A DNA stretch of 31,911 bases from a virus: positions 1 through 31,911 of the IMG/VR virus record IMGVR_UViG_3300034167_000504; one strand, written 5' to 3'. This document shows positions 3,982 to 19,606 of this stretch, in pieces. Below the pieces are notes generated by a model, which saw nothing but the letters and a program-made list of their open reading frames with translations, ran no database searches and was not told the DNA's origin. Both the position numbers and the translations under genes were made by a program. Numbering within the stretch: position 1 is the first letter of the stretch; every line of letters begins with the position of its first letter.

Positions 3982-4488
3982 TTATTTTGATTGAGTTAAA
4001 CCATAGAATTTTTTATAAGCCCATAGTTCAGGTGATAAATTTGAAGGATTAATAAAAGCTTCAACTCCATTTTTATCAATATAGGTAGGTGCAGTTACAG
4101 CTTTTAAATCTGAAATTTTACAAACTTCACCTTTCTCATTTGAAATTGAAGTAATTAAAATCCAAATAGCTAATGCTGAAGTATGTTCTGAAGGAAGTTT
4201 TATACCATTTTTAGAAATTCTTTCAGGTTTAGGTGCATTTTTAATAGCTAACTTTTCAGCTTTAGCAGATTCTTTTTCAAAAGCTTTAAGAGCTTTTTCA
4301 TCCAGTTTAGCTTGTTTGGCAGCAATACGTTCTTCATCTTTTTTAACTTTTTCAGCAAATTTAGCAGCTTCTTTAACTGACTTTTCTTTAACTTTTTCTT
4401 CAGCCAATGCAGTTTTTAAATCAACACAACCTTCTAGTTCGTCAATACCTTCTTGCATTAAATCTAAATTTTCTTGATCTTGTGACAT
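3982..4488 (-). CDS. Hypothetical protein with Lys/Glu/Ala-rich coiled-coil N-terminal half
   Basis: I do not recognise the family. Residues about 25-90 are a highly charged Lys/Glu/Ala stretch without proline until near 87, typical of a long helix or coiled coil. Residues 95-168 look globular (KLPSEHTSALAIWILITSIS, then LSPELWAYKKFYG). No enzyme motif is visible. The gene is the first of the unit driven by the promoter at 4537-4571. A structural or DNA/RNA-binding accessory role in early infection is possible but unproven. Confidence 0.75.
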   Translation of the reverse strand: MSQDQENLDLMQEGIDELEGCVDLKTALAEEKVKEKSVKEAAKFAEKVKKDEERIAAKQAKLDEKALKAFEKESAKAEKLAIKNAPKPERISKNGIKLPSEHTSALAIWILITSISNEKGEVCKISDLKAVTAPTYIDKNGVEAFINPSNLSPELWAYKKFYGLTQSK

Positions 4489-4536: not shown

Positions 4537-4571
4537 AGTATATTTTACCTAATACTTAATTGCAAGCGTTA
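4537..4571 (-). promoter_or_regulatory. Leftward promoter P1 with TAACGCTTGCAA box
   Basis: Read leftward: TTGCAA at 4565-4560, a 17-base spacer, then TATACT at 4542-4537. The -35 box is part of TAACGCTTGCAA (4571-4560), preceded by A/T-rich AAGTTAAAA that could act as an UP element. The predicted start is near 4530, giving a leader of about 40 bases to the ATG at 4488. The same architecture recurs at four other leftward units. Confidence 0.75.
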
Positions 4572-4584
4572 TTTTAACTTATTT

Positions 4585-6258
4585 TTAAAAGGGGAATTCA
4601 TTTATATCAAAATGTACGGAACCTCCAGTTAAAGGAATAGTGTCATCATATTCTACCCATTTAACTTCTTTTTCAAAAATTACTTCTACTATTTCAGGGT
4701 ACTTCTTATTAGTCCAAACTTTAATATGACTTGGTTTTCTTAATGAATCTATCAAATACATTGCGGATAAAATAGTATCAGGTGATCTAGAATCAGCCCT
4801 TGATTTCCACCATATATTAGCTTTATTCTTTGCATAACCCTCATGCTCTATACAAATATATTCGCTAAAGATTTTTAGGTTACTATAGTAACTAACTTTT
4901 AAACTAGGCTTAGAACCTGCTTTGATATGTTGTGCATAAGTAATATGGTCTACTTTAAATAGTTCTATTAACGGTAAATCACCTTTTATAAGTTCATGCG
5001 TTCCAGCCTCAGTATTAATTTTGACAATCATTGTAAATTCAGCATCACAATAGGTACAATTCCTTGCACTGGCATGGTTATAACAACTACAGCTATTACA
5101 TAGCTTAACTGGTGCAGTACCAGCCTTGTCACCTTTTCTTTTTGGTATCAGAGGGTCATTAATAGGTCCTAAACGTCTAGTATTACCAGCAAAATCTAAA
5201 ACTAAACAATTTTCTTTACCAGTTTCAGGACTAGGTCGAGTTCCCCTACCTAATAATTGTACCCACAAATTAATAGAAGTAGTTGGTCTTAATACTATGA
5301 TTAAATCAATAGCTTTATGATTAAAGCCAGTAGTAAGGACGTTATTATTAACAACGGCTCGGAGTTTCCCAGATTTAAAATCTTCAATATATTCATCACG
5401 TTGTTTAGCCCCTATTTTAGAGTGAATTGCTTTACATTCAATTCCTAGCTCGGTTAATATTTCTGCAATGTGGTCACAATGTTCAATCCCTGAACCAAAA
5501 ATTAGCCAATGCTTTCTATCATGGGCTAACTCCATTGATTCTTTTAAAGCTTCAAAAGTAATCTCATATTTGTCTACTGCTATTTGTAAATCTCCTTTAG
5601 CATAATCACCATCACTTCCTAACTTAACACCAGTAGTATCCAGTATTAAATTAGTTTGTTTTGGTATTAAAGGAGCCATATAGCCTTCTGCAATCAAACG
5701 ATTGAATGAGTGCATATCCGTAATATCATAGCAAAAATCAGTAAAAATACCATCTTCTGTTATTTTGCCATGCCCCATTCTATAAGGGGTGGCTGTAAAG
5801 CCTATAACTTTTAAATAAGGATTGAAAGCCTTTAATGCACCAAGAAATTTCTTGTACATTGTTTCATCATTAGGATTAACTAAATGAGCTTCGTCTATAA
5901 TGATAATATCCACTTTACCAAACTTAGCAAAGTCCTTATGAATGGAAGCAATACCAGCAAAAATAATTCTTTTATCATAATCTCTTTGATTAAGCGCAGC
6001 GGAATTAATACCTGCCGGAGCAGTAGACCACATACCTAATAACTCTTTAAAGTTTTGTACAATCAATTCTTTTACATGGGTAAGAACTAAAACCTTTTGG
6101 TGTGGATAACGGTAAAAGGCTCTCATTAAAAACATTGAAATACATACAGATTTTCCGCAACCCGTTGGTATAGCACAAACAGGATTACCTGTATGATCTT
6201 CAAAGTAATTAAATAAAGCATCATTACATTCTAATTGATAATAACGAGGTTCAATCAT
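4585..6258 (-). CDS. Superfamily II DEAH-box helicase with zinc-finger insert
   Basis: This 557-residue protein is an ATP-dependent DNA or RNA helicase. It shows Walker A PTGCGKS (31-37), motif Ia LTHVKEL, Walker B IDEAH (121-125), motif III FTATPYR (154-160), and motif VI QLLGRGTR (334-341). After the helicase core a CxxC...CxxC cluster (Cys387, 390, 401, 404) forms a probable zinc ribbon. The C-terminal 150 residues are unassigned. The layout resembles phage and XPB/RadD-type helicases used in replication or recombination. It begins at ATGA overlapping the stop of the upstream Fe-S nuclease gene, so the two may work together on DNA ends. Confidence 0.9.
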   Translation of the reverse strand: MIEPRYYQLECNDALFNYFEDHTGNPVCAIPTGCGKSVCISMFLMRAFYRYPHQKVLVLTHVKELIVQNFKELLGMWSTAPAGINSAALNQRDYDKRIIFAGIASIHKDFAKFGKVDIIIIDEAHLVNPNDETMYKKFLGALKAFNPYLKVIGFTATPYRMGHGKITEDGIFTDFCYDITDMHSFNRLIAEGYMAPLIPKQTNLILDTTGVKLGSDGDYAKGDLQIAVDKYEITFEALKESMELAHDRKHWLIFGSGIEHCDHIAEILTELGIECKAIHSKIGAKQRDEYIEDFKSGKLRAVVNNNVLTTGFNHKAIDLIIVLRPTTSINLWVQLLGRGTRPSPETGKENCLVLDFAGNTRRLGPINDPLIPKRKGDKAGTAPVKLCNSCSCYNHASARNCTYCDAEFTMIVKINTEAGTHELIKGDLPLIELFKVDHITYAQHIKAGSKPSLKVSYYSNLKIFSEYICIEHEGYAKNKANIWWKSRADSRSPDTILSAMYLIDSLRKPSHIKVWTNKKYPEIVEVIFEKEVKWVEYDDTIPLTGGSVHFDINEFPF

Positions 6259-7154
6259 GCAATTCTCGAATAGGTATTACATCCTTTAAGTTGTAATTCT
6301 TTAGATATTAATTCACCAGTAAATGTACATAACCATTCTGCATTATCCATAGGTTTTGAAAATGAGCAAGTACGGCAGTTATAATCTGGTTCACTGTTAA
6401 GATGACATACTGGTTTGTGGTCACAAAATCTACATTTATAGTATCCAGGACTACTACTTATTTTGTTAGGTGGTTCTGTTGAAAATACTAATTCAGTTCC
6501 TAAATCTAAATGGCTACTAGCGATTTCTTTATTAGCCACAATAATCTCAGCATACAATTTATCTGTATTTTTATTTACTGCCATATAAAGCCCGACTGGA
6601 ATATTCATTTTTTCCATGTAAATATTCATCTGTACTACATGCTCAGGCTTAGTTTTTTCTACACCATCTTTTTCTAAAGCTATGAAAGATTTTTCACCAT
6701 GCGTTTTAAATTCTGCCAAAACATATTCATTAGGATAGTCAGGAATGTTAAAGACAATACCGTCACTACTGCCCCCGAAATGCCCAGAACTATGGCTAAT
6801 ACGAAACTGTTTTCCGTTAGCATCTTGTTGATATACCTCACATCCGATAGTTAATAAAATTGCTATAAATCTAGCTTCTTCAAGATGTCCACGATTAAAT
6901 AAACGTAAAAGACGCCCATCATAATTAGGACGAGTAAACCATCGAAACCCGTACCAAATAGCCCGTTTACATTCTCCACCAATGAGTGAAGCTCCCATGT
7001 GACTTCTGAATGGTGTGTTATCGGGAGAATAAGCATCCCCGATATGACTAATAACTTTGCCAAGATTTTCACGATACTTTGAACCTTGATCTTCATTGAT
7101 TTTTTGCTCGATAAGAGCAAGTGTTTTGTGTGCAATATGGACATTATTGTTCAT
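6255..7154 (-). CDS. Cas4/RecB-like PD-(D/E)xK exonuclease with Fe-S cysteines
   Basis: The 299-residue protein has the RecB-family nuclease signature in order: GHLEE (89-93), GSSDG (Asp131), AEFKTH (Glu148 and Lys150) and QMNIY (Gln175, Tyr179). Cys62 plus the C-terminal cluster Cys241, Cys244, Cys250 matches the 4Fe-4S pattern of Cas4 and AddB-type nucleases. Extra cysteines at 260 and 263 suggest a second metal site. It is likely a DNA end-processing exonuclease. It sits beside the helicase, an SSB-like protein and a Sak4-like ATPase, so phage recombination is the best role. There is no CRISPR array here, so Cas4-type adaptation is unlikely. No strong ribosome binding site precedes the ATG. 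Confidence 0.83.
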   Translation of the reverse strand: MNNNVHIAHKTLALIEQKINEDQGSKYRENLGKVISHIGDAYSPDNTPFRSHMGASLIGGECKRAIWYGFRWFTRPNYDGRLLRLFNRGHLEEARFIAILLTIGCEVYQQDANGKQFRISHSSGHFGGSSDGIVFNIPDYPNEYVLAEFKTHGEKSFIALEKDGVEKTKPEHVVQMNIYMEKMNIPVGLYMAVNKNTDKLYAEIIVANKEIASSHLDLGTELVFSTEPPNKISSSPGYYKCRFCDHKPVCHLNSEPDYNCRTCSFSKPMDNAEWLCTFTGELISKELQLKGCNTYSRIA

Positions 7155-7159
7155 AATAT

Positions 7160-7182
7160 AAGCCCACGTCTTAGGTGGGCTT
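7160..7182 (-). terminator. Hairpin between the SSB-like and nuclease genes
   Basis: An 8-base-pair perfect stem AAGCCCAC/GTGGGCTT with a 7-base loop lies in the 47-base gap. Leftward it is followed by ATATT just before the nuclease ATG, not a long T run. It may attenuate transcription or occlude the weak ribosome binding region of the next gene. Confidence 0.4.
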
Positions 7183-7201
7183 AAACTCCTATGTTAAAGG
7201 A

Positions 7202-7876
7202 TTATTTTGTCATCCAAGCAGGTGGTTGACTTGGGTCAAATGCTGCTTCCGTAGCTGGTTCAGGAGCAGGTTGAGCAACTTGTGGAACTTCAATAGCAAC
7301 TGGTTGAGCTACAGGAGCAGGTTGCGCCCATGCTTGCGCTGGTGCAGCACCTAAAATAGCTGGTGCAATACCAGTAGCTAATGAAGTTGAAACAGGCGGT
7401 ACAAATGCAGGGATTGGTTGAAGAACAGGTACAACTGGTGGCAATATAGCTACAGGTGCAACTTGTGCAACTCCTACAGTTTCATTGACATTCTTATAAG
7501 CAATAATATCATTGCTTGGTGAATAACCTTCTTGCTCAACAACCTTAACTCTGATTTTTAAAGGTATCCCATGTAATTGCTGACTATCGGATACTTGCAT
7601 AATTCCAACAGCATGTGAGATAGCTGATAATTGTGCAAGTGCAATTCTTTGTGCAATATCATTAGCATTACGAATATTCAATCTACCATAAACTGAACGA
7701 TTGATAAAATTGCCATCCACTACTTTAAATCTAAGTTTTAAAATAGCTCCGTCACCATTTTTAGTAGGTGAGATTTCGCTATTATCAATCATCACATTAT
7801 ACCAACCTTCCGGTAATGGATCCATTACACCCATATCTGGTGCTACTTCTAGAGCGTTAAAATTTAATGCTGCCAT
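7202..7876 (-). CDS. DUF669-type single-stranded DNA-binding-like protein with Pro/Ala-rich tail
   Basis: The first 125 residues follow the DUF669 pattern: PLPEGWYNVMIDNSEI, then KNGDGAILKLRFKVVDG, NRSVYGRLNIRNAN, and IALAQLSAISHAVG. These proteins are SSB-like (OB-fold) partners of phage recombination modules. Residues about 130-224 are a long Ala/Pro/Val-rich, probably disordered tail ending DPSQPPAWMTK, comparable to the flexible C-terminal tails by which SSBs recruit partners. It is preceded by a terminator and lies next to the Sak4-like and Cas4-like genes. Confidence 0.75.
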   Translation of the reverse strand: MAALNFNALEVAPDMGVMDPLPEGWYNVMIDNSEISPTKNGDGAILKLRFKVVDGNFINRSVYGRLNIRNANDIAQRIALAQLSAISHAVGIMQVSDSQQLHGIPLKIRVKVVEQEGYSPSNDIIAYKNVNETVGVAQVAPVAILPPVVPVLQPIPAFVPPVSTSLATGIAPAILGAAPAQAWAQPAPVAQPVAIEVPQVAQPAPEPATEAAFDPSQPPAWMTK

Positions 7877-7900
7877 TCTAATTTCCTTTGTTACAGGTTT

Positions 7901-7939
7901 AAAAAAGAGTGTCTATAACACCTGATAAGCTATAGACAC
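7901..7939 (-). terminator. Rho-independent terminator after the Sak4-like gene
   Basis: A 9-base-pair stem GTGTCTATA/TATAGACAC (7909-7917 with 7931-7939) is followed leftward by TCTTTTTT. It lies 7 bases past the stop of the Sak4-like gene and should stop or lower leftward transcription into the SSB-like gene. Confidence 0.75.
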
Positions 7940-7945
7940 ATTATG

Positions 7946-8785
7946 TTATCGTGTATAAACGTCAATGCCAGATACAGCATGTAACGCTTGTGCAAACGCA
8001 TTCCAACCATTAGTAGGAGGTGCTGGGATAGGTAATTCACCTATTAAACCAAAACGGTTTCCAGCAAGGTAAGCAGGGGTTCTTGAAACTGCTAATACTC
8101 TACCCTTGTTTTGTGAAATACCTCTACTTGAATTAGTTGTGGTATTTTCTATAAGGTAAAGAGGTTCATAAAGAAAACCAATAACGTCTGCCCATTGGGT
8201 AAATATTTCTCGTTTACCATAGGTTTTTTGATTCTTTGGTGAATGTAGTAGTAATTCCCAACTGTCATATTCCCCAACAGTAGGATCACTTATTTTAGCA
8301 CTAAAAACATGTGCAGTAAGGACGATATTAATTCCACCATACACAGCAAGAACATCAAGTTGTTGTAGAAATTCTTCAAATAAAGAATTTGCCATTGTGT
8401 AAGCCTTGCCATATCCACCATGAGCTGATTCCATTGTAACTGACTTATTTTTACCACCTTTACTACTTACATCCAATCTTAAAACATATTCATGTATTAA
8501 TCTTTCTAACGCAGTAACAGAATCAAACACTAATGTTTTATAAGGGAATTGACCAGATTGGGCATAAGTAATAATCTCAGTTACTAATTGTAGTACATCT
8601 TCATACTTATTCAAAATTGGAACTTTAGCTACATTTACACCAGCATAACCTACTTCCATAGGAAGCAGTAATGTATTAGGAGCATTGCAAGCTAATGTAG
8701 TCTTACCCATTTTTTCTTGTCCAGCGATAACCATACGAATACCAGAACTGGATACACCTGTGGTTATACTATTTAACATACTCAT
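7946..8785 (-). CDS. Sak4-like RecA-fold ATPase (single-strand annealing/recombination)
   Basis: Residues 22-30 (GQEKMGKTT) form Walker A and 85-89 (LVFDS) Walker B, spaced as in the phage Sak4/AAA_24 group of RecA-core ATPases. Conserved downstream parts include NIVLTAHV (near 154-161), typical of the motif after Walker B. The 279-residue length fits. Sak4 proteins promote single-strand annealing and often need a phage SSB, and the SSB-like gene lies directly downstream. The start at 8785 has AAGGA upstream. A replicative helicase-like ATPase is a less likely alternative. Confidence 0.8.
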   Translation of the reverse strand: MSMLNSITTGVSSSGIRMVIAGQEKMGKTTLACNAPNTLLLPMEVGYAGVNVAKVPILNKYEDVLQLVTEIITYAQSGQFPYKTLVFDSVTALERLIHEYVLRLDVSSKGGKNKSVTMESAHGGYGKAYTMANSLFEEFLQQLDVLAVYGGINIVLTAHVFSAKISDPTVGEYDSWELLLHSPKNQKTYGKREIFTQWADVIGFLYEPLYLIENTTTNSSRGISQNKGRVLAVSRTPAYLAGNRFGLIGELPIPAPPTNGWNAFAQALHAVSGIDVYTR

Positions 8786-8794
8786 TTTATTTCC

Positions 8795-9082
8795 TTAAAG
8801 TTCAACGTAACTGTTTTCTAACAACGTTTCTATATACTGCCTTGCTTCAATAAAGTCAGCTTTTAATTCTGCTTTACGAAGTAGTTCCATAGCTTCAGCA
8901 ATAAAGTCTTTACAAAACTGCATCTGTTCATAATACCGTTCACAACGACTATCTAATACTTCAATTTCTTTTTCATAAACAACAAGTTTATCTATTGTTT
9001 GTTCAATGAGGTCAGAAGTTTGTTGGTCAAAGTTTCCACAACTCATTCGTTCTTGTAAAGTAAAGTTACTGGGAATGTTCAT
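8795..9082 (-). CDS. Hypothetical helical protein
   Basis: I do not recognise it. The 95 residues are rich in Glu, Leu and Lys with few prolines, suggesting helices or a short coiled coil (for example TIDKLVVYEKEIEVLDSRCE). The ATG overlaps the ligase stop as TAATG, so it is co-translated with the ligase and Sak4-like genes. Confidence 0.7.
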   Translation of the reverse strand: MNIPSNFTLQERMSCGNFDQQTSDLIEQTIDKLVVYEKEIEVLDSRCERYYEQMQFCKDFIAEAMELLRKAELKADFIEARQYIETLLENSYVEL

Positions 9083-10026
9083 TACATATCTTCCTCATTT
9101 CTAATTGATTGGTAAGTTGCAAATCTTGGTTTATCTTTAATACCTTTAGGAAAGAATTTAAACTTAATTGTTTTACCAAGTATTTCTTGTTGATGCCCAA
9201 AGTAATGTAATCTTTCAGTATGTGGCATATTTCCAGGACTTACAGTTATAAAATATCCTTTATTAAAAAGGATAGTACCGTTACTATCAAAAACATCATC
9301 CTTTAATTGGCAAGTTAAACTTCCAACCATGCCATTACCAATTTTATTTTCTTGGTGGCTACTGCGAAATGATCTTCCTAATTCATTAACTTGTTTCTCA
9401 TTTAAATTTTCTTCACCTTCTACAAGTGCAGCCACAATAGCTTCAGCATCCATAAAACGCTTAACTCGAAGCAAACCGCCTTCTTTAGCAGTACTACGCC
9501 CCTGTTTATAATTGCCATGAGGATCACGAATAATCAATCCCTCATAACCTTGCATAAGCCAGTTATCTTCCCATTCATTCAATTTTTCTATACTATCAAC
9601 TATAATAAAAGGTAATACTTCTAAATGAGAACCTAATAAACTATACTTTTCTTTAATAGTAGAAATAACCTTTTCAGCCATTTGCAATCTTTTATAATAA
9701 GGTAAACTGATAGTTTCCTCAGTAATGTAATCAAAGATATGCCAAGTAGTGAAAGGAGTTCCTTCATAACTACCTAAAGCACTACTGGTATTTCTACATA
9801 AATCAGGGTGCATTGGATAATTACCTACAATCATTTCCCCATCAAAGCCCTTAAACATAGGGTCACTAAAGAAATGATTAACAAAACGGTTCTTATGTTG
9901 CTTAAGGCTACGACCAGTAAGTTTATCTTCTAAGTACATTGCACGAACACCATCAATCTTAGGTTGTATCATACAAGGGAATTTAATTTTTTCTAAATTT
10001 GCATCTGATGCTAACATTGGTTTCAT
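9082..10026 (-). CDS. ATP-dependent DNA ligase
   Basis: The enzyme seals DNA nicks through a lysine-AMP intermediate. Motif I is PKIDGVR (Lys23 as the adenylated residue), followed by DGEMIVG (about 59-65), YEGLIIRD (motif IV) and LLRVKRF (motif V). The C-terminal part with VGSLTCQLKDDVF and GYFITVSPG looks like the OB-fold domain. At 314 residues it is a compact phage-type ligase. GAGGAAT precedes the ATG. It would act in replication and recombination with the neighbouring genes. Confidence 0.9.
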   Translation of the reverse strand: MKPMLASDANLEKIKFPCMIQPKIDGVRAMYLEDKLTGRSLKQHKNRFVNHFFSDPMFKGFDGEMIVGNYPMHPDLCRNTSSALGSYEGTPFTTWHIFDYITEETISLPYYKRLQMAEKVISTIKEKYSLLGSHLEVLPFIIVDSIEKLNEWEDNWLMQGYEGLIIRDPHGNYKQGRSTAKEGGLLRVKRFMDAEAIVAALVEGEENLNEKQVNELGRSFRSSHQENKIGNGMVGSLTCQLKDDVFDSNGTILFNKGYFITVSPGNMPHTERLHYFGHQQEILGKTIKFKFFPKGIKDKPRFATYQSIRNEEDM

Positions 10027-10028
10027 TA

Positions 10029-10445
10029 TTATTCCTCAAAACCTTGTCTTTTTGCCGATGCAGGAAGTACCACTTTCATTTGTGGTGAACCTTCCTTAAT
10101 GATTAGAAACTGGTCAACTAAATGTACTTCTTCTTCAGTTAAACAACGATATTGCTTAAGTTCAAGTTCTGGTAAAAACTTAACCATCTTATCAGGGCTA
10201 ATATGAGCTTCTTCAAGTTGTTCTTTCATTGCAAGGAAAGCTGCAATATCAACTTTTCTAGTGATTGGCAAGGTTGCATTAAGAATCCAACCTTCCCCTA
10301 AATCAACTTTATTTGTACCTTCTTTTGGTGATGGGAATGCGTCTTTGAAAATTTCATTTCGTAATGAAGATTCAGCATCACGAAGTATTTTTAAATCGTC
10401 CTGCATTTTATACCATAACTCTAATTTCTTAATATTTACTGACAT
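10029..10445 (-). CDS. Conserved phage hypothetical protein
   Basis: The 138-residue protein starts with a helical segment (LELWYKMQDDLKILRDAESSLRN when read in parts), then KVDLGEGWILNATLP and a region rich in Leu and Glu. Similar small proteins seem common next to phage ligase or recombination genes, but I know no function. It is the first gene after promoter P2, so it leads the ligase/Sak4 unit. Confidence 0.75.
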   Translation of the reverse strand: MSVNIKKLELWYKMQDDLKILRDAESSLRNEIFKDAFPSPKEGTNKVDLGEGWILNATLPITRKVDIAAFLAMKEQLEEAHISPDKMVKFLPELELKQYRCLTEEEVHLVDQFLIIKEGSPQMKVVLPASAKRQGFEE

Positions 10446-10500
10446 TTTCGTACTCCAGTTGGATTGGTGTGGTGGATTATTTTTATTTTTGGTACAGCTA

Positions 10501-10534
10501 ATAATAACACAACTGTTATTAATTGCAAGTGTTA
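10501..10534 (-). promoter_or_regulatory. Leftward promoter P2 with TAACACTTGCAA box
   Basis: Read leftward: TAACACTTGCAA (10534-10523) ends in the TTGCAA -35 box, and TATTAT (10506-10501) is a possible -10 with a 16-base spacer. The box is preceded by CATAAAA. It is placed to drive 10445 down through the ligase and Sak4-like genes. Confidence 0.65.
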
Positions 10535-12895
10535 TTTTATGTTACTTACATCAAGAATACGGTATGCCTTACCGTGGAAATTAAAAGCAGTAGCAGTTTC
10601 AGCAGCAGCCATTTCTACAATATAACCACTATCGCATAAAGATTTTATTGTGCTGTCTAGTGCTTTACCAGAACCATATTGATATTTTTCAAATGGTGGA
10701 CAATTACAAATCTTCATTTGTAGATATTTTCTAGAAACAATACCTAAAGTTCTCATAGACTCTATTACTTTGTAACCAGCGGACGGTTGTTCTTGTAAAT
10801 ACTTTTTCATTATATTAAGTAGTTTACGTTCCCTAGCATTATCAGTAACGCCAATTTCTCCACTAGCCATTTTATTTTCCATTAAACCTATATCTCTACG
10901 AACTGCTTTTAACGCCCAAGCTACATCTGTTTCTTGAATAACAGGGAACATAAAATTATTTCCTACAGCTAGTAAAGCAGCCATCTTTGTAACTTTTAAA
11001 GCAGCACGATTCCACATTTGTCGCCATGATTCATCTTCTGAACTATTAATTTGTGCATCACATTCTAATTCAAATTGTGCAATAATTTTTGCAGCTTCAC
11101 TAGATCGCTGAACACTTGAATTATCACCTTTATTAATTAATATAGAGCAATGAGAACATACTTCAGATAATGAATCCGATAATATTGCATCTGGTTGTCT
11201 TATTTGTTTTGTGTTCAAAGGAGGTCGCTCCCCTGAATATTCAAATAAGTTAAACCTAGATAAAAAACCATCAGACATCATACTAGGCGTTAAACATTCA
11301 TAGAAAGTTCCAGGAGTTGTTTCACCAATCATGGAATATGAGACACCAGAAATTGAAGCCACATTATTATCTTTACTAGAATAGGTTAAGCCACCCACAA
11401 TAGATTGAGGTCCAGACTTTTGGTATAAATCCGTCATAACAGTTCGTAAAGAGTGCATGGCAGTATCACGACCATCATCTTTAGCTAAACGTGTTAATTT
11501 ACGTCCCCATTCTCCAGCCACATTTACAAAACTATTATTATCTATTACAGTTTTTATTAAAGCTGGACCTGAAGCAAATTCTGTAAAATTAACAAATCTC
11601 ATACAAACAGGATCACGACTTGTAACGGCAGTCATTAAAGATGAAATTCCACTATGCAAAGCTTCTTTACCAATACCTGATCTAGCTATAAGTATGATAT
11701 ACATATTAAGCCCAGACTGAGTGATTGAATAAGCCTTGCCACATATACCAGCCATAAGCCCTAACGCAGCTACAATAGCAACTTCCTTTACAGGTCTAGG
11801 TGCTGAACTGTATATGTAACGCGCAATTTTGCCAGTAAGTCCTGGAGGGTAATCCAATACATTAGGGTCATCAGATACTTCATCGTTATCTAAATTAAAC
11901 TTTTCTGCAAATGCAGCACTTGTAGGTTTATCATAGATTTTGTCATTAGTATTCTCAGTACTATGTAAAAACTCACTAGCTTTCTTAAAACCTTGTAACT
12001 CCATTACTAAATCAGCAGCAATAGATATCTGACTTAAATCAGCCTGTACTGTATTTTGTTCCCTTGTTCTTATAACACGCAAAGTGTTATTAAGATAAGT
12101 GTCATTCTTTACAGCTTTTTCTCTTTGACCTAAACCACTAAGTCTAAATAAACGTCTACATTGTTCATTAGAAGGGCTATAAAAAGTAAGCATAGACAAT
12201 AAAGCTAAATCAGCTTCTGATTGTGACGGGTATCCTGTAGTATCACCTTTACACAACAGATTAAATTTATCCTTATTAGAAGCATTAATAGCCATTTCTA
12301 TAATAGCGTTATCGTCCATTTCTTGTGGTAACTCTTCCAAACCTGTCTTAACAACCTGCGGTTTCATCTGAAGCTGCATACTGTCTAAAAATGCTTGTGC
12401 ATCCACAATAGGGTGATTAATTAATGTGTTCCCAGTACAAATCATATAGCGTTCTTGACTATATACTTCAACACCATCCCTACGCATACCAGAACCAATA
12501 TTACCTTTTACCCAAATATGAATACCTTTTCCATATTTAGAATGTTCAGTATATGATTTTAGATTTTGAACTATGCTCCAATAGCGATTCAAATGTTCTT
12601 GTGTAGTCCATTTAGTACGGTCTATTGGTTGTAACTTTCGAGTTTGACTTTCCTGATCCACTACATCTAAATCAATGCAAGTAAATGGGTCATCTTTAGT
12701 TAATACATATCCAAAATTCAAATTAAGAATTTTTGAATAATGTACAGCTTCTTCAAAAGTTAATAAATAACTTGGATCAGTAACGGATATATTAAATACG
12801 TTTGATCCGTTTGTTGATAAGGGAGCTTTATTTTCACCACTTAAAGCCCATTGCCGTCTTTCTTTTAAATCATTTGGAATTTTACTGAACGGCAT
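10532..12895 (-). CDS. Primase-polymerase/helicase fusion (AEP-like N-terminus, DUF3987-like ATPase)
   Basis: This 787-residue protein is probably the replicative primase-helicase. The N-terminal part shows archaeo-eukaryotic primase features: CIDLDV (Asp75, Asp77) for metal binding, SKYGKGIHIWVKG (119-131, with the conserved His), and RYMICTGN (149-156). A linker follows, then a helicase-like ATPase with Walker A ARSGIGKE (403-410) in a DUF3987-like context (RPVKEVAIVAALGLMAG before it). The last 100 residues may be a winged-helix region. It follows the small HTH gene in the unit driven by P3. No DNA polymerase gene is in the window. Confidence 0.82.
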   Translation of the reverse strand: MPFSKIPNDLKERRQWALSGENKAPLSTNGSNVFNISVTDPSYLLTFEEAVHYSKILNLNFGYVLTKDDPFTCIDLDVVDQESQTRKLQPIDRTKWTTQEHLNRYWSIVQNLKSYTEHSKYGKGIHIWVKGNIGSGMRRDGVEVYSQERYMICTGNTLINHPIVDAQAFLDSMQLQMKPQVVKTGLEELPQEMDDNAIIEMAINASNKDKFNLLCKGDTTGYPSQSEADLALLSMLTFYSPSNEQCRRLFRLSGLGQREKAVKNDTYLNNTLRVIRTREQNTVQADLSQISIAADLVMELQGFKKASEFLHSTENTNDKIYDKPTSAAFAEKFNLDNDEVSDDPNVLDYPPGLTGKIARYIYSSAPRPVKEVAIVAALGLMAGICGKAYSITQSGLNMYIILIARSGIGKEALHSGISSLMTAVTSRDPVCMRFVNFTEFASGPALIKTVIDNNSFVNVAGEWGRKLTRLAKDDGRDTAMHSLRTVMTDLYQKSGPQSIVGGLTYSSKDNNVASISGVSYSMIGETTPGTFYECLTPSMMSDGFLSRFNLFEYSGERPPLNTKQIRQPDAILSDSLSEVCSHCSILINKGDNSSVQRSSEAAKIIAQFELECDAQINSSEDESWRQMWNRAALKVTKMAALLAVGNNFMFPVIQETDVAWALKAVRRDIGLMENKMASGEIGVTDNARERKLLNIMKKYLQEQPSAGYKVIESMRTLGIVSRKYLQMKICNCPPFEKYQYGSGKALDSTIKSLCDSGYIVEMAAAETATAFNFHGKAYRILDVSNIK

Positions 12896-12905
12896 ACCGT
12901 TTCCT

Positions 12906-13133
12906 TTATTTTTCTAAACCACGTCTCTTATTGAGGTTTTTTTGTAATTCTTTTAACAATGGTAATAAAGGTTCCCTTTCCCATATTGTTAATTGGATTC
13001 CTGGAACTTCAATAGCATTGGGAAGTTTACCGTTATTTTTCCATGAAACTATAGTAGCTCTCGGGATATTTAACTGTTTGCAAATTTCACCAGACGTTAT
13101 ATACTTAGTATTAAATACTTCTAAATGACTCAT
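12906..13133 (-). CDS. Small helix-turn-helix DNA-binding protein
   Basis: The 75-residue protein has an AlpA/MerR-like HTH: ITSGEICKQLNIPRATIVSW (12-31), then KLPNAIEVPG as a likely wing. It is the first gene after promoter P3 and precedes the primase-helicase. It could help load the replication protein at the origin or regulate early genes. The family is recognised only at the fold level. Confidence 0.75.
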   Translation of the reverse strand: MSHLEVFNTKYITSGEICKQLNIPRATIVSWKNNGKLPNAIEVPGIQLTIWEREPLLPLLKELQKNLNKRRGLEK

Positions 13134-13162
13134 TATAATTTTCCTATTTTGAAAAGCGTTAC

Positions 13163-13197
13163 AGTTTAATAGGATTAAATTGTAATTGCAAGTGTTA
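13163..13197 (-). promoter_or_regulatory. Leftward promoter P3 with TAACACTTGCAA box
   Basis: Read leftward: TAACACTTGCAA (13197-13186) with TTGCAA as -35, a 17-base spacer, and TAAACT (13168-13163) as -10. An A-rich run lies upstream. A further half-site AGCGTTA occurs near 13155. It should drive the HTH and primase-helicase genes. Confidence 0.72.
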
Positions 13198-13201
13198 CTT
13201 T

Positions 13202-13432
13202 TTAATCTATTGTATTCTTTTTTAAGCCATTTTTAAATAAGAAATCATTAATGGTACGTTTACAATCTACAATAGTAAATTCCCTAATCCAATCCCTACC
13301 ATTATCTAAGATTTGATACCATTCAATATCCTCTTTTTTAGGTCTTTTAGGTACAACAGTTCCGTTTTTATCTAACTTCCAATCACCACATATACCGTAT
13401 GAAGGAATTATCTCAAAGCCTTTATATTTCAT
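13202..13432 (-). CDS. Small conserved phage protein, unknown function
   Basis: The 76-residue protein begins MKYKGFEIIPSYG and contains RPKKEDIEWYQILDNG and TIVDCKRTINDFL. This looks like a common small phage protein pattern, but no function is known to me. It ends 5 bases before promoter P3. Confidence 0.65.
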   Translation of the reverse strand: MKYKGFEIIPSYGICGDWKLDKNGTVVPKRPKKEDIEWYQILDNGRDWIREFTIVDCKRTINDFLFKNGLKKNTID

Positions 13433-13433
13433 A

Positions 13434-13769
13434 CTAATTCCCTACAGCTAAAAGTGCTTCAATTCTTAATATTTCAGTTAGTATAGTTTCTTTTTTCCAT
13501 AATCTAGTTGTTAATGGAAAACCTTTTGTACTGGTAGTTTTATTTCCAAAATTAGTATTACTTCTTACTAATCTTTTAAAATCATTTTTAGGAAAATGAC
13601 CTTTTGCTAATCTTAAATTCAACGCACTACTTGTAAATCCAAAAATGTCACAAATATCTTTTACTCTAATAGGAGAATTAGAAGCTACCGTCTTTAACCA
13701 ATCATAGTTAGATGGTTTACGGTAATTAAAATTATTTGCTCCAGCATTATCACCAATTTTAAAAGTCAT
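13434..13769 (-). CDS. Hypothetical protein with possible HTH
   Basis: I do not recognise the family. A start at 13769 (MTFKIGDNAG) is preferred because GGAATTC lies just upstream; an ATG at 13781 lacks any ribosome binding site. The segment RVKDICDIFGFTSSALNLRL resembles a helix-turn-helix, and basic residues follow. The product would be 111 residues. It lies directly upstream of the 76-residue gene. Confidence 0.6.
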   Translation of the reverse strand: MTFKIGDNAGANNFNYRKPSNYDWLKTVASNSPIRVKDICDIFGFTSSALNLRLAKGHFPKNDFKRLVRSNTNFGNKTTSTKGFPLTTRLWKKETILTEILRIEALLAVGN

Positions 13770-13825
13770 ATAGAATTCCATTAGTTAATTAAAAAGTTCT
13801 GACGTATTAATTATCCCGTACATTC

Positions 13826-13961
13826 AAGCCACTGGGGTTCACTCCAAATAATAAGCATGATAAAGCCTGCCGTCCTTATTACTAGAGCATTAATACTATT
13901 TCAAGCTGTCAGAGTAGCCTTAAGCGTCCTTGCAGGCAATATATCCTGAGGAGTAGTGGCT
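13826..13961. ncRNA. Possible structured RNA in a gene-free gap
   Basis: The 208-base gap between coding genes contains nested complementary arms. AGCCACT(G) at 13827-13834 pairs with (T)AGTGGCT at 13954-13961, and inside it GCCTGC at 13865-13870 pairs with GCAGGC at 13932-13937. Further short hairpins (GGGG-TTCA-CTCC at 13834-13845, TCC-TGA-GGA near 13946) fit inside. Two of the extra pairs are G-U only if the + strand is the RNA, a weak hint of that orientation. No tRNA cloverleaf, clear promoter or terminator was seen. A decayed gene or element is also possible. Confidence 0.35.
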
Positions 13962-13977
13962 CCGGCAATCAAATTAG

Positions 13978-14229
13978 TTAATCGTAATCTCGGTCAACAT
14001 CGTTATGACTATTCGAGATTTGTTCTTCAATACTGGCTAAACATTCCTCATTCAACACAAGGATTAAATCTACTTCACCACACATTACTGATAGGATTTC
14101 AATTACTTCACATGAATCAGGGTAACTACCGTCCCAAGGACCTGAATAAATTCCTATTGTGGCAGCTTCAAAATTATACTCGACTTCCATGTCAAATCCT
14201 GCAACAACGCACTCCGTTATGAGGCTCAT
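13978..14229 (-). CDS. Small conserved phage protein, unknown function
   Basis: The 83-residue acidic protein has the pattern VAGFDMEVEYNFEAA, then YPDSCEVIEILSV, and an acidic C-terminus ending DRDYD. Similar short proteins seem frequent in phages, but no function is known to me. It overlaps the stop of the preceding membrane gene by 4 bases. Confidence 0.65.
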   Translation of the reverse strand: MSLITECVVAGFDMEVEYNFEAATIGIYSGPWDGSYPDSCEVIEILSVMCGEVDLILVLNEECLASIEEQISNSHNDVDRDYD

Positions 14230-14453
14230 TTCTCATAACCTATATCTTGGTTTTGGAATGAAGCCTTGTTTGTGGGTAGCTCCAATACTTCAAAAATGTG
14301 GGAACCTTTGTTATCATGGTCGTCTATGATAAAAGTTCCACTACGAGTCTTGTGCAGTTTAAAACTTTTGTCATCTTGCATAAACTTAGCTCCAATAACA
14401 AAACCAATTATAAGACCTATTAATAATACAGCTAAAACATTTTTCTTATCCAT
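14226..14453 (-). CDS. Small membrane-anchored protein
   Basis: The 75-residue protein has one transmembrane segment near residues 5-22 (VLAVLLIGLIIGFVIGA) with a lysine pair before it, then a soluble domain with HKTRSGTFIIDDHD. Orientation would put the soluble part outside or in the periplasm if the N-terminal lysines stay inside. Function is unknown. Confidence 0.65.
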   Translation of the reverse strand: MDKKNVLAVLLIGLIIGFVIGAKFMQDDKSFKLHKTRSGTFIIDDHDNKGSHIFEVLELPTNKASFQNQDIGYEK

Positions 14454-14463
14454 TTTATTCCCC

Positions 14464-14715
14464 TTAGTATGATATTACACGAACAATTTGATCTGTATAA
14501 GCCCAACGACCATCGCCAGACTTATCAATGTAATCAATGACATTTCTACCATTCTTACCTTCTTCAGTAAATCCAGTTAAGGTAACTACTTCTGGTGCAT
14601 CGCCACCGAAACCTGATCTAACCACAACAACTGAACCTTGTCCAAGGCGTTCCTCATCCACATTTATTTTGGTAGCTGACTGATTAGACATTAAAGCATT
14701 TAATAACATATTCAT
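14464..14715 (-). CDS. Small beta-rich phage protein
   Basis: The 83-residue protein contains VVVVRSGFGGDAPEVVTLTG and VIDYIDKSGDGRWAYTDQIV, a pattern suggesting a small beta barrel. AGGAG precedes the ATG at a good distance. I recall similar unknown phage proteins but no function. Confidence 0.65.
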   Translation of the reverse strand: MNMLLNALMSNQSATKINVDEERLGQGSVVVVRSGFGGDAPEVVTLTGFTEEGKNGRNVIDYIDKSGDGRWAYTDQIVRVISY

Positions 14716-14730
14716 CTTAGTTCTCCTAAA

Positions 14731-15030
14731 TCAAAAATAATTTCTACGCCATTCACAAAAGTCATCATCTTCAGGATGAGCGTACATACCACCCTCTTCA
14801 CCTAAGTAACAGAACCCGTTGTAGCAATTCTGGTCGTGAAGCAAGTCTTCTAACATCACGTTAGCACCTTCTGCCATACCAATCCATCGGTCTTCTGATT
14901 GCCTAATCCAACTGGCAACTTGTTCAGGTCTTTCACGCTTATCCTTAAGCCTGTCACTACAGTGACGGATAAAATCACGGTGGCGTTCTAACGCTTTTAC
15001 TACTACTTTAGTTGGATTCTTTCTAGCCAT
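14731..15030 (-). CDS. Hypothetical early protein, first gene after P4
   Basis: The 99-residue protein has a basic N-terminal half (KVVVKALERHRDFIRHCSDR) and an acidic C-terminal half with DQNCYNGFCYLGEEGGMY and DDDFCEWRR. Four cysteines could bind metal, but spacing is not a known motif. The ATG follows GGGGAACAGC. It is the first gene after promoter P4. Confidence 0.65.
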   Translation of the reverse strand: MARKNPTKVVVKALERHRDFIRHCSDRLKDKRERPEQVASWIRQSEDRWIGMAEGANVMLEDLLHDQNCYNGFCYLGEEGGMYAHPEDDDFCEWRRNYF

Positions 15031-15075
15031 GCTGTTCCCCTTTTGTTAAGATAATTTAATTTTTACTACAGCTAT

Positions 15076-15124
15076 AATATACCATGTAAATTTAACGCTT
15101 GCAAGTTTTATTTTACAAGCGTTA
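15076..15124 (-). promoter_or_regulatory. Leftward promoter P4 with three overlapping operator-like boxes
   Basis: Read leftward: TTGCAA (15104-15099), a 17-base spacer, and TATATT (15081-15076). The -35 box is shared by a + strand TAACGCTTGCAA (15093-15104) and a weak leftward box. A second leftward box TAACGCTTGTAA lies at 15124-15113, creating an inverted pair AACGCTTG...CAAGCGTT. The crowding suggests binding by a dimer or two protein units. Confidence 0.72.
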
Positions 15125-15135
15125 TCTTTATAATT

Positions 15136-15330
15136 CTACATATTTTCTATGTATTTGGTAAGAGTAGCAAAAGTTACTGCTCTAGGAGTACCGATTCGCA
15201 ATCCTAACATTCGGCAAGCTGTCTTATTAGCTGAAGTTCTAAACTTCAAACCTTTCATTTCTAAACCTAGCGCACTTCTAATAGCTGAAAGTCTATACTT
15301 TTCAATTTGTTCTGGTGTATTTAAAATCAT
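15136..15330 (-). CDS. Small basic hypothetical protein
   Basis: The 64-residue protein is rich in Arg, Lys, Ala and Leu (RLSAIRSALGLEMKGLKF) and has helical character. It may bind nucleic acid, but no family motif is visible. It lies just before promoter P4. Confidence 0.55.
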   Translation of the reverse strand: MILNTPEQIEKYRLSAIRSALGLEMKGLKFRTSANKTACRMLGLRIGTPRAVTFATLTKYIENM

Positions 15331-15340
15331 TTTATTCCCC

Positions 15341-15628
15341 TCATCCTAAAAACTTAACAGCATCAAAAAAACCTTGTCGGTAACTATCCTCATCAACTGG
15401 ATACCAACCATTGATAATGGCGTTAGATAGGCAAGTATCAATGGCATCATTACTTAAAAATTCTCTTTTTTGTAAAACATATTCTTGAATAATCAACTCG
15501 GCAAATTTTTCTAAATCAACTTTAGATATATCATAATCTCCATCAATATTCCATACTTCACACTTGTCAGCAAGTTCTGCAATTTTCTCTTTTATTTCCA
15601 AAGTCAATAAATCTAAATTAGACATCAT
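15341..15628 (-). CDS. Hypothetical acidic protein
   Basis: The 95-residue protein has an N-terminal helical part (LDLLTLEIKEKIAELADKCE) and a C-terminal segment INGWYPVDEDSYRQGFFDA. No family is recognised. It overlaps the next gene by one base at the stop/start. Confidence 0.6.
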   Translation of the reverse strand: MMSNLDLLTLEIKEKIAELADKCEVWNIDGDYDISKVDLEKFAELIIQEYVLQKREFLSNDAIDTCLSNAIINGWYPVDEDSYRQGFFDAVKFLG

Positions 15629-15888
15629 TACACGTCCATCCCATGATTAACTATTACAATTAATTGATCTTCAGAATTACCTTTGCGAAACATAGTTACA
15701 GAATTACAAAAGTAAAGACCGTTGTTATAACAATGTTCTTCTTCAAAATACTCTTTGTACTCGGCTAATTCTTCATCAAGAATATTTTCATTTAGGTTTG
15801 TGACAAGAAGCCATTCATAAGTATAAAAATCTTCTTGAACATTACCAATCTTGGTATATTTTAAATCGCTATTTTTCTCAAACATCAT
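15628..15888 (-). CDS. Hypothetical acidic protein
   Basis: No family is recognised. An earlier ATG at 15903 lies inside the upstream gene. The start at 15888 (MMFEKNSDL) is preferred because GAGG lies upstream in the end of that gene. The product of about 86 residues has many Glu, Tyr and Asn residues. Confidence 0.55.
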   Translation of the reverse strand: MMFEKNSDLKYTKIGNVQEDFYTYEWLLVTNLNENILDEELAEYKEYFEEEHCYNNGLYFCNSVTMFRKGNSEDQLIVIVNHGMDV

Positions 15889-16219
15889 CTTCATCCTCAT
15901 CAACAGTATCTAAACCAAAGAATATGTAGCAAGGTTCCCACATATCTACTTCATCTTCAGGGCAAACTTCAATAGAATTATCTAACACAACCGTCATGTC
16001 CTCAACACCCTCAAACAAAACTTCTACAGCCAGTTTATAAGCATCATCATCTAAATCTTCAATATGCTCAGTTGACCAAGACACGTCCAACAGCATGTCT
16101 TTTATGTCTTGATAAGTAGTAGCACCTTCAACAATAACTTGGACTACATCATTGTGGTAGCCACGGAAGTAATCACCTGTGCAGGTATCTAAATGATGCA
16201 GGAAGTATTTCTTTTTCAT
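15878..16219 (-). CDS. Hypothetical strongly acidic protein
   Basis: The 113-residue protein has HHLDTCTGDYFRGYHNDVVQ near the start, then many Asp/Glu residues, ending DTVDEDEDDV. AGGAG precedes the start. The acidity could fit a DNA-mimic or inhibitor role, but that is speculation. Confidence 0.62.
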   Translation of the reverse strand: MKKKYFLHHLDTCTGDYFRGYHNDVVQVIVEGATTYQDIKDMLLDVSWSTEHIEDLDDDAYKLAVEVLFEGVEDMTVVLDNSIEVCPEDEVDMWEPCYIFFGLDTVDEDEDDV

Positions 16220-16258
16220 TTGTAACTCCTATTAATTAATGATAACGAATGTCATCCA

Positions 16259-16284
16259 CATAGGCACTGTTTCCAATGCCTATG
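16259..16284 (-). terminator. 8-base-pair hairpin between small genes
   Basis: CATAGGCA and TGCCTATG form a perfect stem with a 10-base loop, just after the stop at 16289. There is no T tract leftward, so it may be a processing or pausing hairpin rather than a full terminator. Confidence 0.35.
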
Positions 16285-16288
16285 AAGA

Positions 16289-16513
16289 TTAATCAGCGTT
16301 AGGAAAAACTACGAAACTTTTTCTTAATTTAGCATACCGGAATATAATGCCACTAAACTTTGGGCATGGTGATCCCTCGCTAAGGTCACGTTTAGAAACA
16401 TAACAACCCTCAGGAACCAGTCTGAAATCTTTACCATCTTCCCAGTCAGCTAAAACACTAGCTTTAGATTTGTAGTCACGACCATAAGCCGGAATTAAAT
16501 GTAAGTCTCTCAT
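16289..16513 (-). CDS. Small hypothetical phage protein
   Basis: The 74-residue basic/aromatic protein contains LIPAYGRDYKSKASVLADW and FRLVPEGCYVSKRDL, a pattern I have seen in unknown phage proteins. Its ATG overlaps the stop of the upstream gene by 4 bases. Confidence 0.65.
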   Translation of the reverse strand: MRDLHLIPAYGRDYKSKASVLADWEDGKDFRLVPEGCYVSKRDLSEGSPCPKFSGIIFRYAKLRKSFVVFPNAD

Positions 16514-16713
16514 TTTGTTTCCTCAAGTGGTGCTAGAATTATCCAACCTTTGTTCAACAGTTCTGATATAGCCTCATACGCATCCCCATTTTTAATTTTA
16601 GGATTAGCATCAATAATTTCTACTACTTTATTGTGGTTAAACGCTTTTTCCCAAGTATTAAAACGTCTACCGTCCGTACCCTCGTACAATCTTACTTCTT
16701 TTATATCACTCAT
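16510..16713 (-). CDS. Small hypothetical phage protein
   Basis: Start at 16713 (MSDIKEVRLYEG) is chosen because AGGAG lies 9 bases upstream; a longer reading from 16755 would run into the previous gene. The 67-residue product contains DGRRFNTWEKAFNHN, like small phage proteins with a marked element for residue changes in host-like peptides, but no function is known. Confidence 0.65.
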   Translation of the reverse strand: MSDIKEVRLYEGTDGRRFNTWEKAFNHNKVVEIIDANPKIKNGDAYEAISELLNKGWIILAPLEETK

Positions 16714-16715
16714 TT

Positions 16716-17042
16716 TTATTCTCCTAATTTTATAAAAAACCAACGATCTGCACATGAATCAAATTGCTCAGGATTAAAATACATATTTAATTCTGTAGCA
16801 TAGGTAGCCACATTATAAGTAGCTACATAAGTATCTGGACAAACATCAAATAACTCAAGAATAGGATAATCATTTACGTCTAGAAACAACATACCTTTAT
16901 TTACTTCATCATGGACAATACTTCGAACTCGATAGAATTCTTTATCATCATATCTTTCAACATAAAGATTCTTAGGTGTCACTTCATAGACATTCGCTAA
17001 GTGTAAAGCTGGGATCATTTTAATATTTCTAAGATCAATCAT
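16716..17042 (-). CDS. Hypothetical phage protein
   Basis: Start at 17042 (MIDLRNIKMIPA) is preferred: GAGGA lies at good distance and the ATG forms TAATG with the upstream stop. The 108-residue product is rich in aromatic residues and Val/Asp. No family is recognised. Confidence 0.6.
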   Translation of the reverse strand: MIDLRNIKMIPALHLANVYEVTPKNLYVERYDDKEFYRVRSIVHDEVNKGMLFLDVNDYPILELFDVCPDTYVATYNVATYATELNMYFNPEQFDSCADRWFFIKLGE

Positions 17043-17272
17043 TACCATTCCTCATTTAAATTAGTTTCAACAATAAATCCATTTTCAACCAGACCACATT
17101 CACAAACGAACTTAGTCCATTCGCCTGGATTCTTAGGGTCAACCCAATCCGCAGTACACCATTTTTTGTGGCAACCTTGGAACGCATCAGTTTGAGCCTT
17201 TGCTTTTTCCATAGTATCAAAGACACCATGATTACTTTGACCTGTAAAGGACATTGCGATAAACATCTTCAT
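17042..17272 (-). CDS. Small hypothetical protein with conserved cysteines
   Basis: The 76-residue protein contains CHKKWCTADW and FVCECGLVENG: four cysteines that may form a small metal site. The N-terminal part FIAMSFTGQSNHGVFDTM suggests a beta strand and turn. Function is unknown. Confidence 0.6.
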   Translation of the reverse strand: MKMFIAMSFTGQSNHGVFDTMEKAKAQTDAFQGCHKKWCTADWVDPKNPGEWTKFVCECGLVENGFIVETNLNEEW

Positions 17273-17277
17273 TTTTG

Positions 17278-17499
17278 TTACTCCTTATTTATTTTAATTA
17301 ACTCATCTTCCCAATATTCAATATCGTTCATCAATTCTAAGATATATAGTGAAGCATCAATATCAAGAGCAATGGAACGATTATTATTATTTATTATTTC
17401 TTGATATATTTCAGTATCAAGATTAAGTGGAAAAATTTCAGCATCGAGAAGGGTACATAAAGTTACTATTTTAGATTTTACTACGTCAATTCTTTTCAT
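17278..17499 (-). CDS. Small hypothetical helical protein
   Basis: The 73-residue protein has Leu/Ile/Asn/Glu-rich helical character and ends EDELIKINKE. The start has a GGAGT region upstream. No family is recognised. Confidence 0.55.
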   Translation of the reverse strand: MKRIDVVKSKIVTLCTLLDAEIFPLNLDTEIYQEIINNNNRSIALDIDASLYILELMNDIEYWEDELIKINKE

Positions 17500-17541
17500 T
17501 TTATTACTCCAAAAAATTAAGCCGTCCTTGGCGATTAGATA

Positions 17542-17703
17542 TTAACCTACTTTACGAGTTATTTCATCAACCCAGAATTTATTTATTAAAGAGTTGATAG
17601 ATAGATACTCAGCACCATTCACTTTTAAAGTAGACAGATGCTGTGTTAAAGACCTAATGTACTTTGTACGAGCTGGGCTTAGATAATTTTTATTCGCTTT
17701 CAT
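17542..17703 (-). CDS. Small basic hypothetical protein, first gene after P5
   Basis: Start at 17703 (MKANKNYLSPAR) is preferred, since GAGG lies 9 bases upstream; an ATG at 17739 would be almost at the predicted transcript start. The 53-residue product is basic (SPARTKYIRSLTQHL) and could bind nucleic acid. Function is unknown. Confidence 0.55.
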   Translation of the reverse strand: MKANKNYLSPARTKYIRSLTQHLSTLKVNGAEYLSINSLINKFWVDEITRKVG

Positions 17704-17750
17704 ATAGATAAACCTCATATTTGGACACATAAGCAACATTGCTTAGGGTT

Positions 17751-17785
17751 ATATTACACTTGTTATATATACATTACAAGCGTTA
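17751..17785 (-). promoter_or_regulatory. Leftward promoter P5 with TAACGCTTGTAA box
   Basis: Read leftward: TAACGCTTGTAA (17785-17774) with TTGTAA as -35, a 17-base spacer, and TAATAT (17756-17751) as -10. An A/T-rich AGTTAAAA precedes it. An opposing partial box TTACACTTGTTA lies at 17754-17765 across the -10, so a protein binding there could repress. Confidence 0.75.
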
Positions 17786-17882: not shown

Positions 17883-18164
17883 CTAAGAACGGGCGTGTTT
17901 GCGTAAAGGTTTAGGGACAGGGTTAAACTTACGGGATAACAACAGGACTTCTTGTACTTTATTGAAGTTTATCCCGAACTCGGACTTCAGCCATCCGTCA
18001 ATGTCAGACTTAAGATATGAGATACCTCGTCTACCTGATATTGAAGAAGGGACTTGTGTTGGAGCATCGGGGTTAGACAAGTATTTGCGGACATAGTGTT
18101 CCGACCTACCAATGTAAGTCATTATGTCTACTATGGATAAGTATTCGTCAGATGTCGGTGTCAT
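17883..18164 (-). CDS. HTH DNA-binding protein, excisionase/AlpA-like
   Basis: The product from ATG 18164 (MTPTSDEYLSIVDIM) is 93 residues. YLSIVDIMTYIGRSEHYVRK is a probable helix-turn-helix, followed by ISGRRGISYLKSDIDGWLKS, typical of the wing and C-terminal helix of MerR/AlpA-type small regulators. A TTG at 18176 gives a longer reading but has no better support. It is the last gene of the unit 18644-17883 and may be the regulator that binds the repeated motifs; that link is untested. Confidence 0.7.
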   Translation of the reverse strand: MTPTSDEYLSIVDIMTYIGRSEHYVRKYLSNPDAPTQVPSSISGRRGISYLKSDIDGWLKSEFGINFNKVQEVLLLSRKFNPVPKPLRKHARS

Positions 18165-19054: not shown

Positions 19055-19104
19055 GGTTTTGAGGGTAAAAACTCAATTCTATAACTTTAATTCTGAGGTG
19101 TAAA

Positions 19105-19568: not shown

Positions 19569-19578
19569 TAGGCACAAA

Positions 19579-19602: not shown

Positions 19603-19606
19603 ATTT

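Follow-up and report, generated by a model that had tools for sequence, protein, structure and literature searches.

A putative dyad operator shared by early promoters, and a TTGC-type -35 element, in a deazaguanine phage related to Queuovirinae

The DNA analyzed here is the IMG/VR virus record IMGVR_UViG_3300034167_000504, positions 1 to 31,911 (31.9 kb; hereafter the window). It belongs to a tailed phage with a Queuovirinae-type gene layout and carries a short repeated box, TAACRCTTGYAA, in its promoter regions. Encoded leftward are folE, queD, queC, queE, a helicase, a Cas4-like exonuclease, SSB, a Sak4-like protein, a ligase and a primase; dCTP deaminase, endolysin, terminase, portal and capsid genes run rightward. 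A near-identical IMG/VR contig of 59.9 kb (G002), with a 100% identical primase, contains the window as its positions 25602-57512 and provides the remaining sequence of the phage, with DpdA, the enzyme inserting deazaguanine into DNA. With the preQ0 pathway, DpdA and a replication module in the same order, the phage is a deazaguanine phage related to Queuovirinae by gene content and order. No integrase or immunity repressor was found in the parts scanned, and the phage looks lytic. Its relatives include L008 (97% identical), G003 (primase 63% identical), and L103 and L102 (71-73% identity in DpdA, 50-60% in QueE and 33-45% in the homologue of the protein encoded at 3982-4488). The promoters and sites of the window are listed below; genes outside annotated records are open reading frame (ORF) calls and promoters are consensus calls.

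4537-4571, minus strand: promoter and putative operator, box at 4560-4571, TTGCAA-17-TATACT; unit of 3982-4488 and queE/queC/queD/folE/dpdA
10501-10534, minus strand: promoter and putative operator, box at 10523-10534, TTGCAA-16-TATTAT; unit of 10029-10445, ligase, Sak4-like protein, SSB, Cas4-like exonuclease and helicase
13163-13197, minus strand: promoter and putative operator, box at 13186-13197, TTGCAA-17-TAAACT; helix-turn-helix (HTH) gene and primase
15076-15124, minus strand: promoter TTGCAA-17-TATATT with two facing dyads, 15093-15104 and 15113-15124, upstream of 14731-15030
17751-17785, minus strand: promoter TTGTAA-17-TAATAT with dyads at 17774-17785 (on the -35) and 17754-17765 (spacer/-10)
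19026-19054, plus strand: promoter TTGTTT-17-TAAAAT of 19105-19440, with a palindromic dyad, 19039-19050, in the spacer
20051-20079, minus strand: near-consensus promoter TTGACA-17-TAATAT with a dyad, 20055-20066, in the spacer/-10
21007-21018, minus strand: the most symmetric dyad (TAACGCGTGTTA), just upstream of 20506-20976
21330-21341, plus strand: dyad identical to the exact box, within a 446-bp divergent control region
21398-21409, plus strand: second dyad of the control region, in the repeated context TTTAGCYRCCTAACACWTGTAA

The first five of these stretches had been described in a first-pass annotation as leftward promoters whose shared box includes the -35, an agreement judged to be beyond chance. 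All five are present with box and -10 as described, with spacers of 16-17 bp to TATACT, TATTAT, TAAACT, TATATT and TAATAT, respectively. A total of seven exact copies of TAACRCTTGYAA were found in the window against 0.05 expected from dinucleotide shuffling, none of 100 shuffles reached seven, and the box pattern read backwards had no match. The agreement is thus well beyond chance, and the dyad counts given below point the same way. The list of five was incomplete, since seven further dyad sites on both strands had been missed; two exact copies lie on the opposite strand, at 15093-15104 and 21330-21341. At 15076-15124 the stretch is real and the -35 had been misplaced: the best promoter there is TTGCAA (15099-15104)-17-TATATT, within the inverted second copy at 15093-15104, and the box named earlier (15113-15124) stands upstream of this -35. 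That annotation had also not recognized the dyad, the spacer sites that point to repression, or TTGCAA as the usual -35 of the family.

Comparison of the two strands reveals the box as one face of a 12-bp element with imperfect dyad symmetry, TWRCR-NN-YGYWA, which occurs at 15 sites in the window against 2.5 expected from shuffles. Twelve of the 15 are intergenic (starting at 4560, 10523, 13186, 15093, 15113, 17754, 17774, 19039, 20055, 21007, 21330 and 21398), with non-coding DNA making up 11.2% of the window. A symmetric matrix scanned over the whole of G002 gave 15 sites scoring at least 13.9, the next best scoring 11.2, and 13 of the 15 are intergenic. Strong sites of this contig beyond the window lie at 21989 (intergenic and paired with 21973), 1682 (barely inside a predicted ORF) and 12472 (within a long gene). 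Dyads outnumber their reversed control by 20 to 3 in G002, 7 to 2 in G001 and, more weakly, 12 to 6 in G003, while the more distant relatives scanned have them only at the reversed-control level. Unsupervised enumeration of dyads in eight phages placed TAACA-N2-TGTTA near the top in G002 only, and A/T runs dominate elsewhere. The pattern was also considered as a family-wide operator and rejected, being at control level outside the clade.

The sites are kept at orthologous promoters of diverged relatives. The que promoter retains the box in L103 (TAACGCTTGCAA) and L102 (CAACACTTGCAA), each 16 bp from the -10, and the promoter downstream of the DNA polymerase retains it in G002 (TAACGCTTGTAA) and L102 (TAACATTTGTAA). 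At the orthologous place of the HTH-primase promoter, L010 reads TAACACTTGTAA-16-TATAAT. In L008 five base changes over three shared sites (10523, 17754 and 17774) all stay within the dyad class: the sole change at 10523-10534 is in a central dyad base, four changes in 17751-17785 leave both sites in the class, and 19026-19054 is identical. G003 possesses a dyad upstream of the orthologue of 14731-15030 (4794) and of the homologue of 20506-20976 (16417). The strong excess, intergenic position, dyad symmetry and conservation give good support to the shared regulatory site proposed by the first-pass annotation, which had allowed for a phage or a host regulator. A dyad built on an ACA-NN-TGT core is a typical feature of host regulators of the TetR and LacI types, in keeping with a host protein at these sites. 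However, the dyad is limited to one phage clade and stands at control level in other family members, which makes a host regulator very improbable and a phage regulator the likelier of the two. Because the dyad falls to control level beyond this clade, its cognate protein is probably clade-specific and phage-coded, and the genes discussed below are candidates for it.

The promoters have TATAAT-like -10 elements at spacers of 16-18 bp, as in sigma70-type promoters, and their -35 is not TTGACA-like but TTGCAA or TTGTAA here and TTGCA in the family consensus. Three dyads, at 17754, 19039 and 20055, lie in the spacer or on the -10. Same-class dyads in the -35 or spacer were also found in G003, at TTGACT-16-TATAAT (4794 and 9711), TTGTAA-16-TATAAT (3265) and TTGCGT-16-TATAAT (12621). 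Where a strong promoter has normal spacing, a site between its -35 and -10 is better explained by a repressor, and judging from these positions the regulator probably represses. The box might instead be an activator site that replaces a good -35, so that a bound phage protein recruits host RNA polymerase in the manner of T4 MotA. This would suit the five named promoters, where the box lies exactly over a weak -35 (at most 4/6 matches to TTGACA) at a fixed distance from the -10, and the HTH-primase promoter, whose -35 box is kept across the whole family. An activator would, however, block transcription at sites in the spacer or over the -10 of the normally spaced TTGACA-17-TAATAT and TTGACT-16-TATAAT, and the sites occur in both orientations and in facing pairs. 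We regard the activator as unlikely.

We consider it rather probable that the box is one face of a 12-bp dyad operator read at most early units by a single phage-coded dimeric protein, likely a repressor, and that, separately, a TTGC/TTGT family -35 replaces TTGACA. Such a dimeric DNA-binding protein would recognize TWRCR-NN-YGYWA where it overlies the -35 or spacer of otherwise host-sigma70-like promoters; on accumulating, the protein would keep RNA polymerase off and dampen all early units at once, its own gene probably among them. Coordination of early genes, as proposed earlier, agrees with the distribution of the sites, which are carried by the que, recombination/helicase and HTH-primase units and by several small-gene units. 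Some observations weigh against repression by one protein: the weak -35 under the site in the five named promoters is compatible with an activator, the dyads at 21330 and 21398 have no convincing -10 nearby, and, for the best candidate below, the fold match is at family level only (Z 5-8). MerR-type proteins, moreover, are often activators.

The candidate genes for the regulator are the following.

12906-13133, minus strand: small MerR/BldC/excisionase-like winged-HTH protein (from a fold model), the best candidate, with a putative operator in front
20506-20976, minus strand: first leftward gene after the control region, distant homologue of 3982-4488 via G003, the second candidate
3982-4488, minus strand: belongs to a Queuovirinae family sharing a C-terminal NG..P..W..WRKF.G domain; some relatives carry the annotation 'transcriptional activator'

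Members of the 12906-13133 family are encoded beside the primase in some 30 related phages and loci. The fold modelled for 12906-13133 (pLDDT 87) is similar to winged-HTH domains of the MerR, BldC and excisionase types, with a best Z of 8.0 to MerR-type chains and a Pfam match below the cut-off. Recognition-helix residues common to the window and G003 are not found in other members; this matches the distribution of the dyad but also plain kinship. With a site at its own promoter, this protein may be the regulator of the dyad, a tentative assignment. For 20506-20976 the dyad stands in front in both the window phage and G003, and a search for relatives in viral contigs found the phage itself only. 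A fold search of 3982-4488 gave no usable match. The NG..P..W...WRKF.G family (3982-4488 and 20506-20976; L041, L043, L044, L046, L047 and others) is multi-copy within a phage, with members heading the que operon and lying close to the control region. The small HTH protein at 17883-18176, which had also been put forward, had no relative found in G003 or phage isolates and is not retained. The 'TetR' gene of phage 9g was compared as a possible homologue of a window protein and had no match, and no mapped regulator for this phage family was found in the papers searched.

The -35 element was analyzed from the base after TTG at promoter spacing, in gene-oriented intergenic DNA with promoters clustered; the hexamer scan requires TTG. 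The discovery set comprised 26 Queuovirinae-like loci and its analysis was exploratory, only the replication set being untouched. In the discovery set the base was C 66, T 35, A 8 and G 6, so TTGC or TTGT accounts for 101 of 115 clusters and TTGA for 8. Septimatrevirus-like controls, with the same type of replication module and no que genes, gave A 47, C 25, G 11 and T 10 (TTGA 47/93), and TTGACA was commonest. The depletion of TTGA in Queuovirinae against both control groups pooled has p = 2e-12, with phage loci partly dependent even after clustering, and intergenic TTGN overall is free of this bias (A 23%). The TTGC peak is confined to spacers of 16-18. Of the 18 IMG/VR records, 12 were found to carry DpdA, the other six being mostly fragments, as against 0 of 11 near-complete control contigs. 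Hosts are partly common to the groups, with counts of C 19, T 8, A 2 and G 1 for members from enterobacteria and of C 6, T 3 and G 2 for those from Pseudomonas. Taken by itself, the window clade is less strongly shifted (C 17, T 15, G 7, A 7; in coding DNA, A 62/199). Replication on 62 unused DpdA contigs gave C 50, T 16, A 14 and G 9 (p = 8e-7 in comparison with the Septimatrevirus controls). Among sites of this set with a strong -10, TTGC peaks at spacers of 17 (18 sites; TTGA 1) and 16 (7 sites; TTGA 2), and other distances are flat. After deduplication the -35 consensus at spacers of 16-17 is TTGCA in DpdA phages against TTGACA in controls. TC follows the hexamer directly (TTGCRATC) in 19% of family promoters versus 2% of controls. 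Upstream of the HTH gene, the -35 is TTGCGA or TTGCAA in nearly all family members, often after TAAC and 17-18 bp from the -10. For MED16, considered as an independent DpdA lineage, the counts (TTGC 5, TTGA 2) are too small for a decision, and the search for a MED16-primase control set gave no loci. DpdA phages of the family thus use a TTGC/TTGT -35 and almost no TTGA.

The dominance of TTGC across DpdA phages would agree with a simpler account of the box, in which TTGCAA is merely the family sigma70 -35, the TAAC flank is a shared promoter feature and no dedicated regulator exists. Against it, full 12-bp dyads lie away from the -35 (19039, 20055, 21007 and 15113) with both halves conserved, and the TAAC half is absent from most of the family's TTGC promoters, being present in 19 of 118 clusters. 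We hold this account to be improbable and retain the dyad operator together with the family -35.

The preference for TTGC might be attributed to the modification pathway, whose genes are given here.

1-479, minus strand: DpdA (DNA deazaguanine transglycosylase), N-terminal part; with the que genes, the G-modification pathway
479-3910, minus strand: folE, queD, queC and queE; with DpdA, the G-modification pathway

For the DpdA of phage CAjan, the modified Gs are reported to be those in GA and GGC (PMC8306585, citing Kot et al. 2020). TTGACA puts the -35 G in GA and would therefore carry a modified G, whereas TTGC and TTGT do not place it there. All 47 Gs in the 12 operator sites are in GT or GC contexts, as is partly forced by the pattern definition. 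Recognition of the -35 by sigma region 4 takes place in the major groove, where the 7-substituent lies, and early promoters must work in modified form because modified DNA enters the cell. Most likely, then, TTGC keeps the sigma-contacted G out of the GA context modified by DpdA. The broader proposal is that deazaguanine (GA/GGC) phages rewrote the sigma70 -35 from TTGACA to TTGCA/TTGT, so that the contacted G is never in a modified context, self-modification having shaped the promoter code and likewise the GT/GC-only operator; to this we give even chances. Several points weigh against it: the GA/GGC rule was measured in CAjan, a phage other than this one, TTGA promoters occur in the clade (window 20055; G003 4794 and 9711), and the Queuovirinae phage EC151 has 2 TTGA and 1 TTGG among only 3 hits. 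TTGC could also have been fixed by an ancestral operator instead of by modification, but -35 positions 5 and 6 are free to vary and the TAAC half is as scarce as stated above. No paper linking deazaguanine to the -35 element was found in the literature library searched. If modification is the cause, hypermodification, known as a restriction shield, also constrains how phages write promoters. This would explain deazaguanine phages without a textbook -35, give a simple rule for finding their promoters, and make testable the reading of injected, already modified DNA by unmodified host RNA polymerase. The dyad itself offers a concrete handle on early gene control in this phage family.

Other sequence features were also observed. 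On the minus strand, 10480-10500 and 15055-15075 have a common sequence just downstream of the -10, TAGCTGTA..AAAAAT.AAA, which may be an initially transcribed element common to both; a related GTGCTGTAAAAA is present at the que promoter and is roughly kept in L103 and L102. The long intergenic stretches 18645-19104 and 20986-21431 carry TTTTCTTTTACTATAAAA and ATACCTTATTAATCAATYACTTAT as repeats, which may be elements of an origin or of control. In G003 the large terminase (19290-21923) has 877 aa versus 534 in the window, and the extra part starts intein-like (GLPLDEPVYTERGPVHIGNLKVGD).

In the related phage 9g, early and late genes diverge from an intergenic control region with putative regulators, and the account of this phage, in the part consulted, describes no repeated operator and does not show early promoters sharing a box (PMC4276943). 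We found two same-class dyads in the early/late control region of 9g (L044), at 28060-28071 and 28133-28144, beside a predicted leftward promoter. A parallel operator-on-35 design is seen at the HTH-primase promoter of Septimatrevirus (L050 and relatives), where the -35 is embedded in an inverted repeat (TTGTCAA...TTGACA). Unlike here, that promoter has the consensus TTGACA (TTGACA-17-TATGAT or similar in 7/7 cases) and goes with an unrelated HTH protein, and no deazaguanine genes were found there. T4 middle promoters carry a MotA box at -30, likewise a phage element over the -35 region upstream of a normal -10. In contrast to a site confined to -30/-35 in one orientation, the sites here are dyads in both orientations, in the spacer and away from the -35. 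Dispersed phage repressor operators are known from the stoperators of mycobacteriophage L5 and from lambda OL/OR. The present sites differ from these in being a 12-bp imperfect dyad, in a lytic-looking phage, with a regulator at candidate level. As in those systems, one short operator recurs over many phage units, on promoters and often in pairs, and the features of a dispersed-operator regulon, namely above-chance repetition, intergenic location and conservation at orthologous promoters, are all found here.

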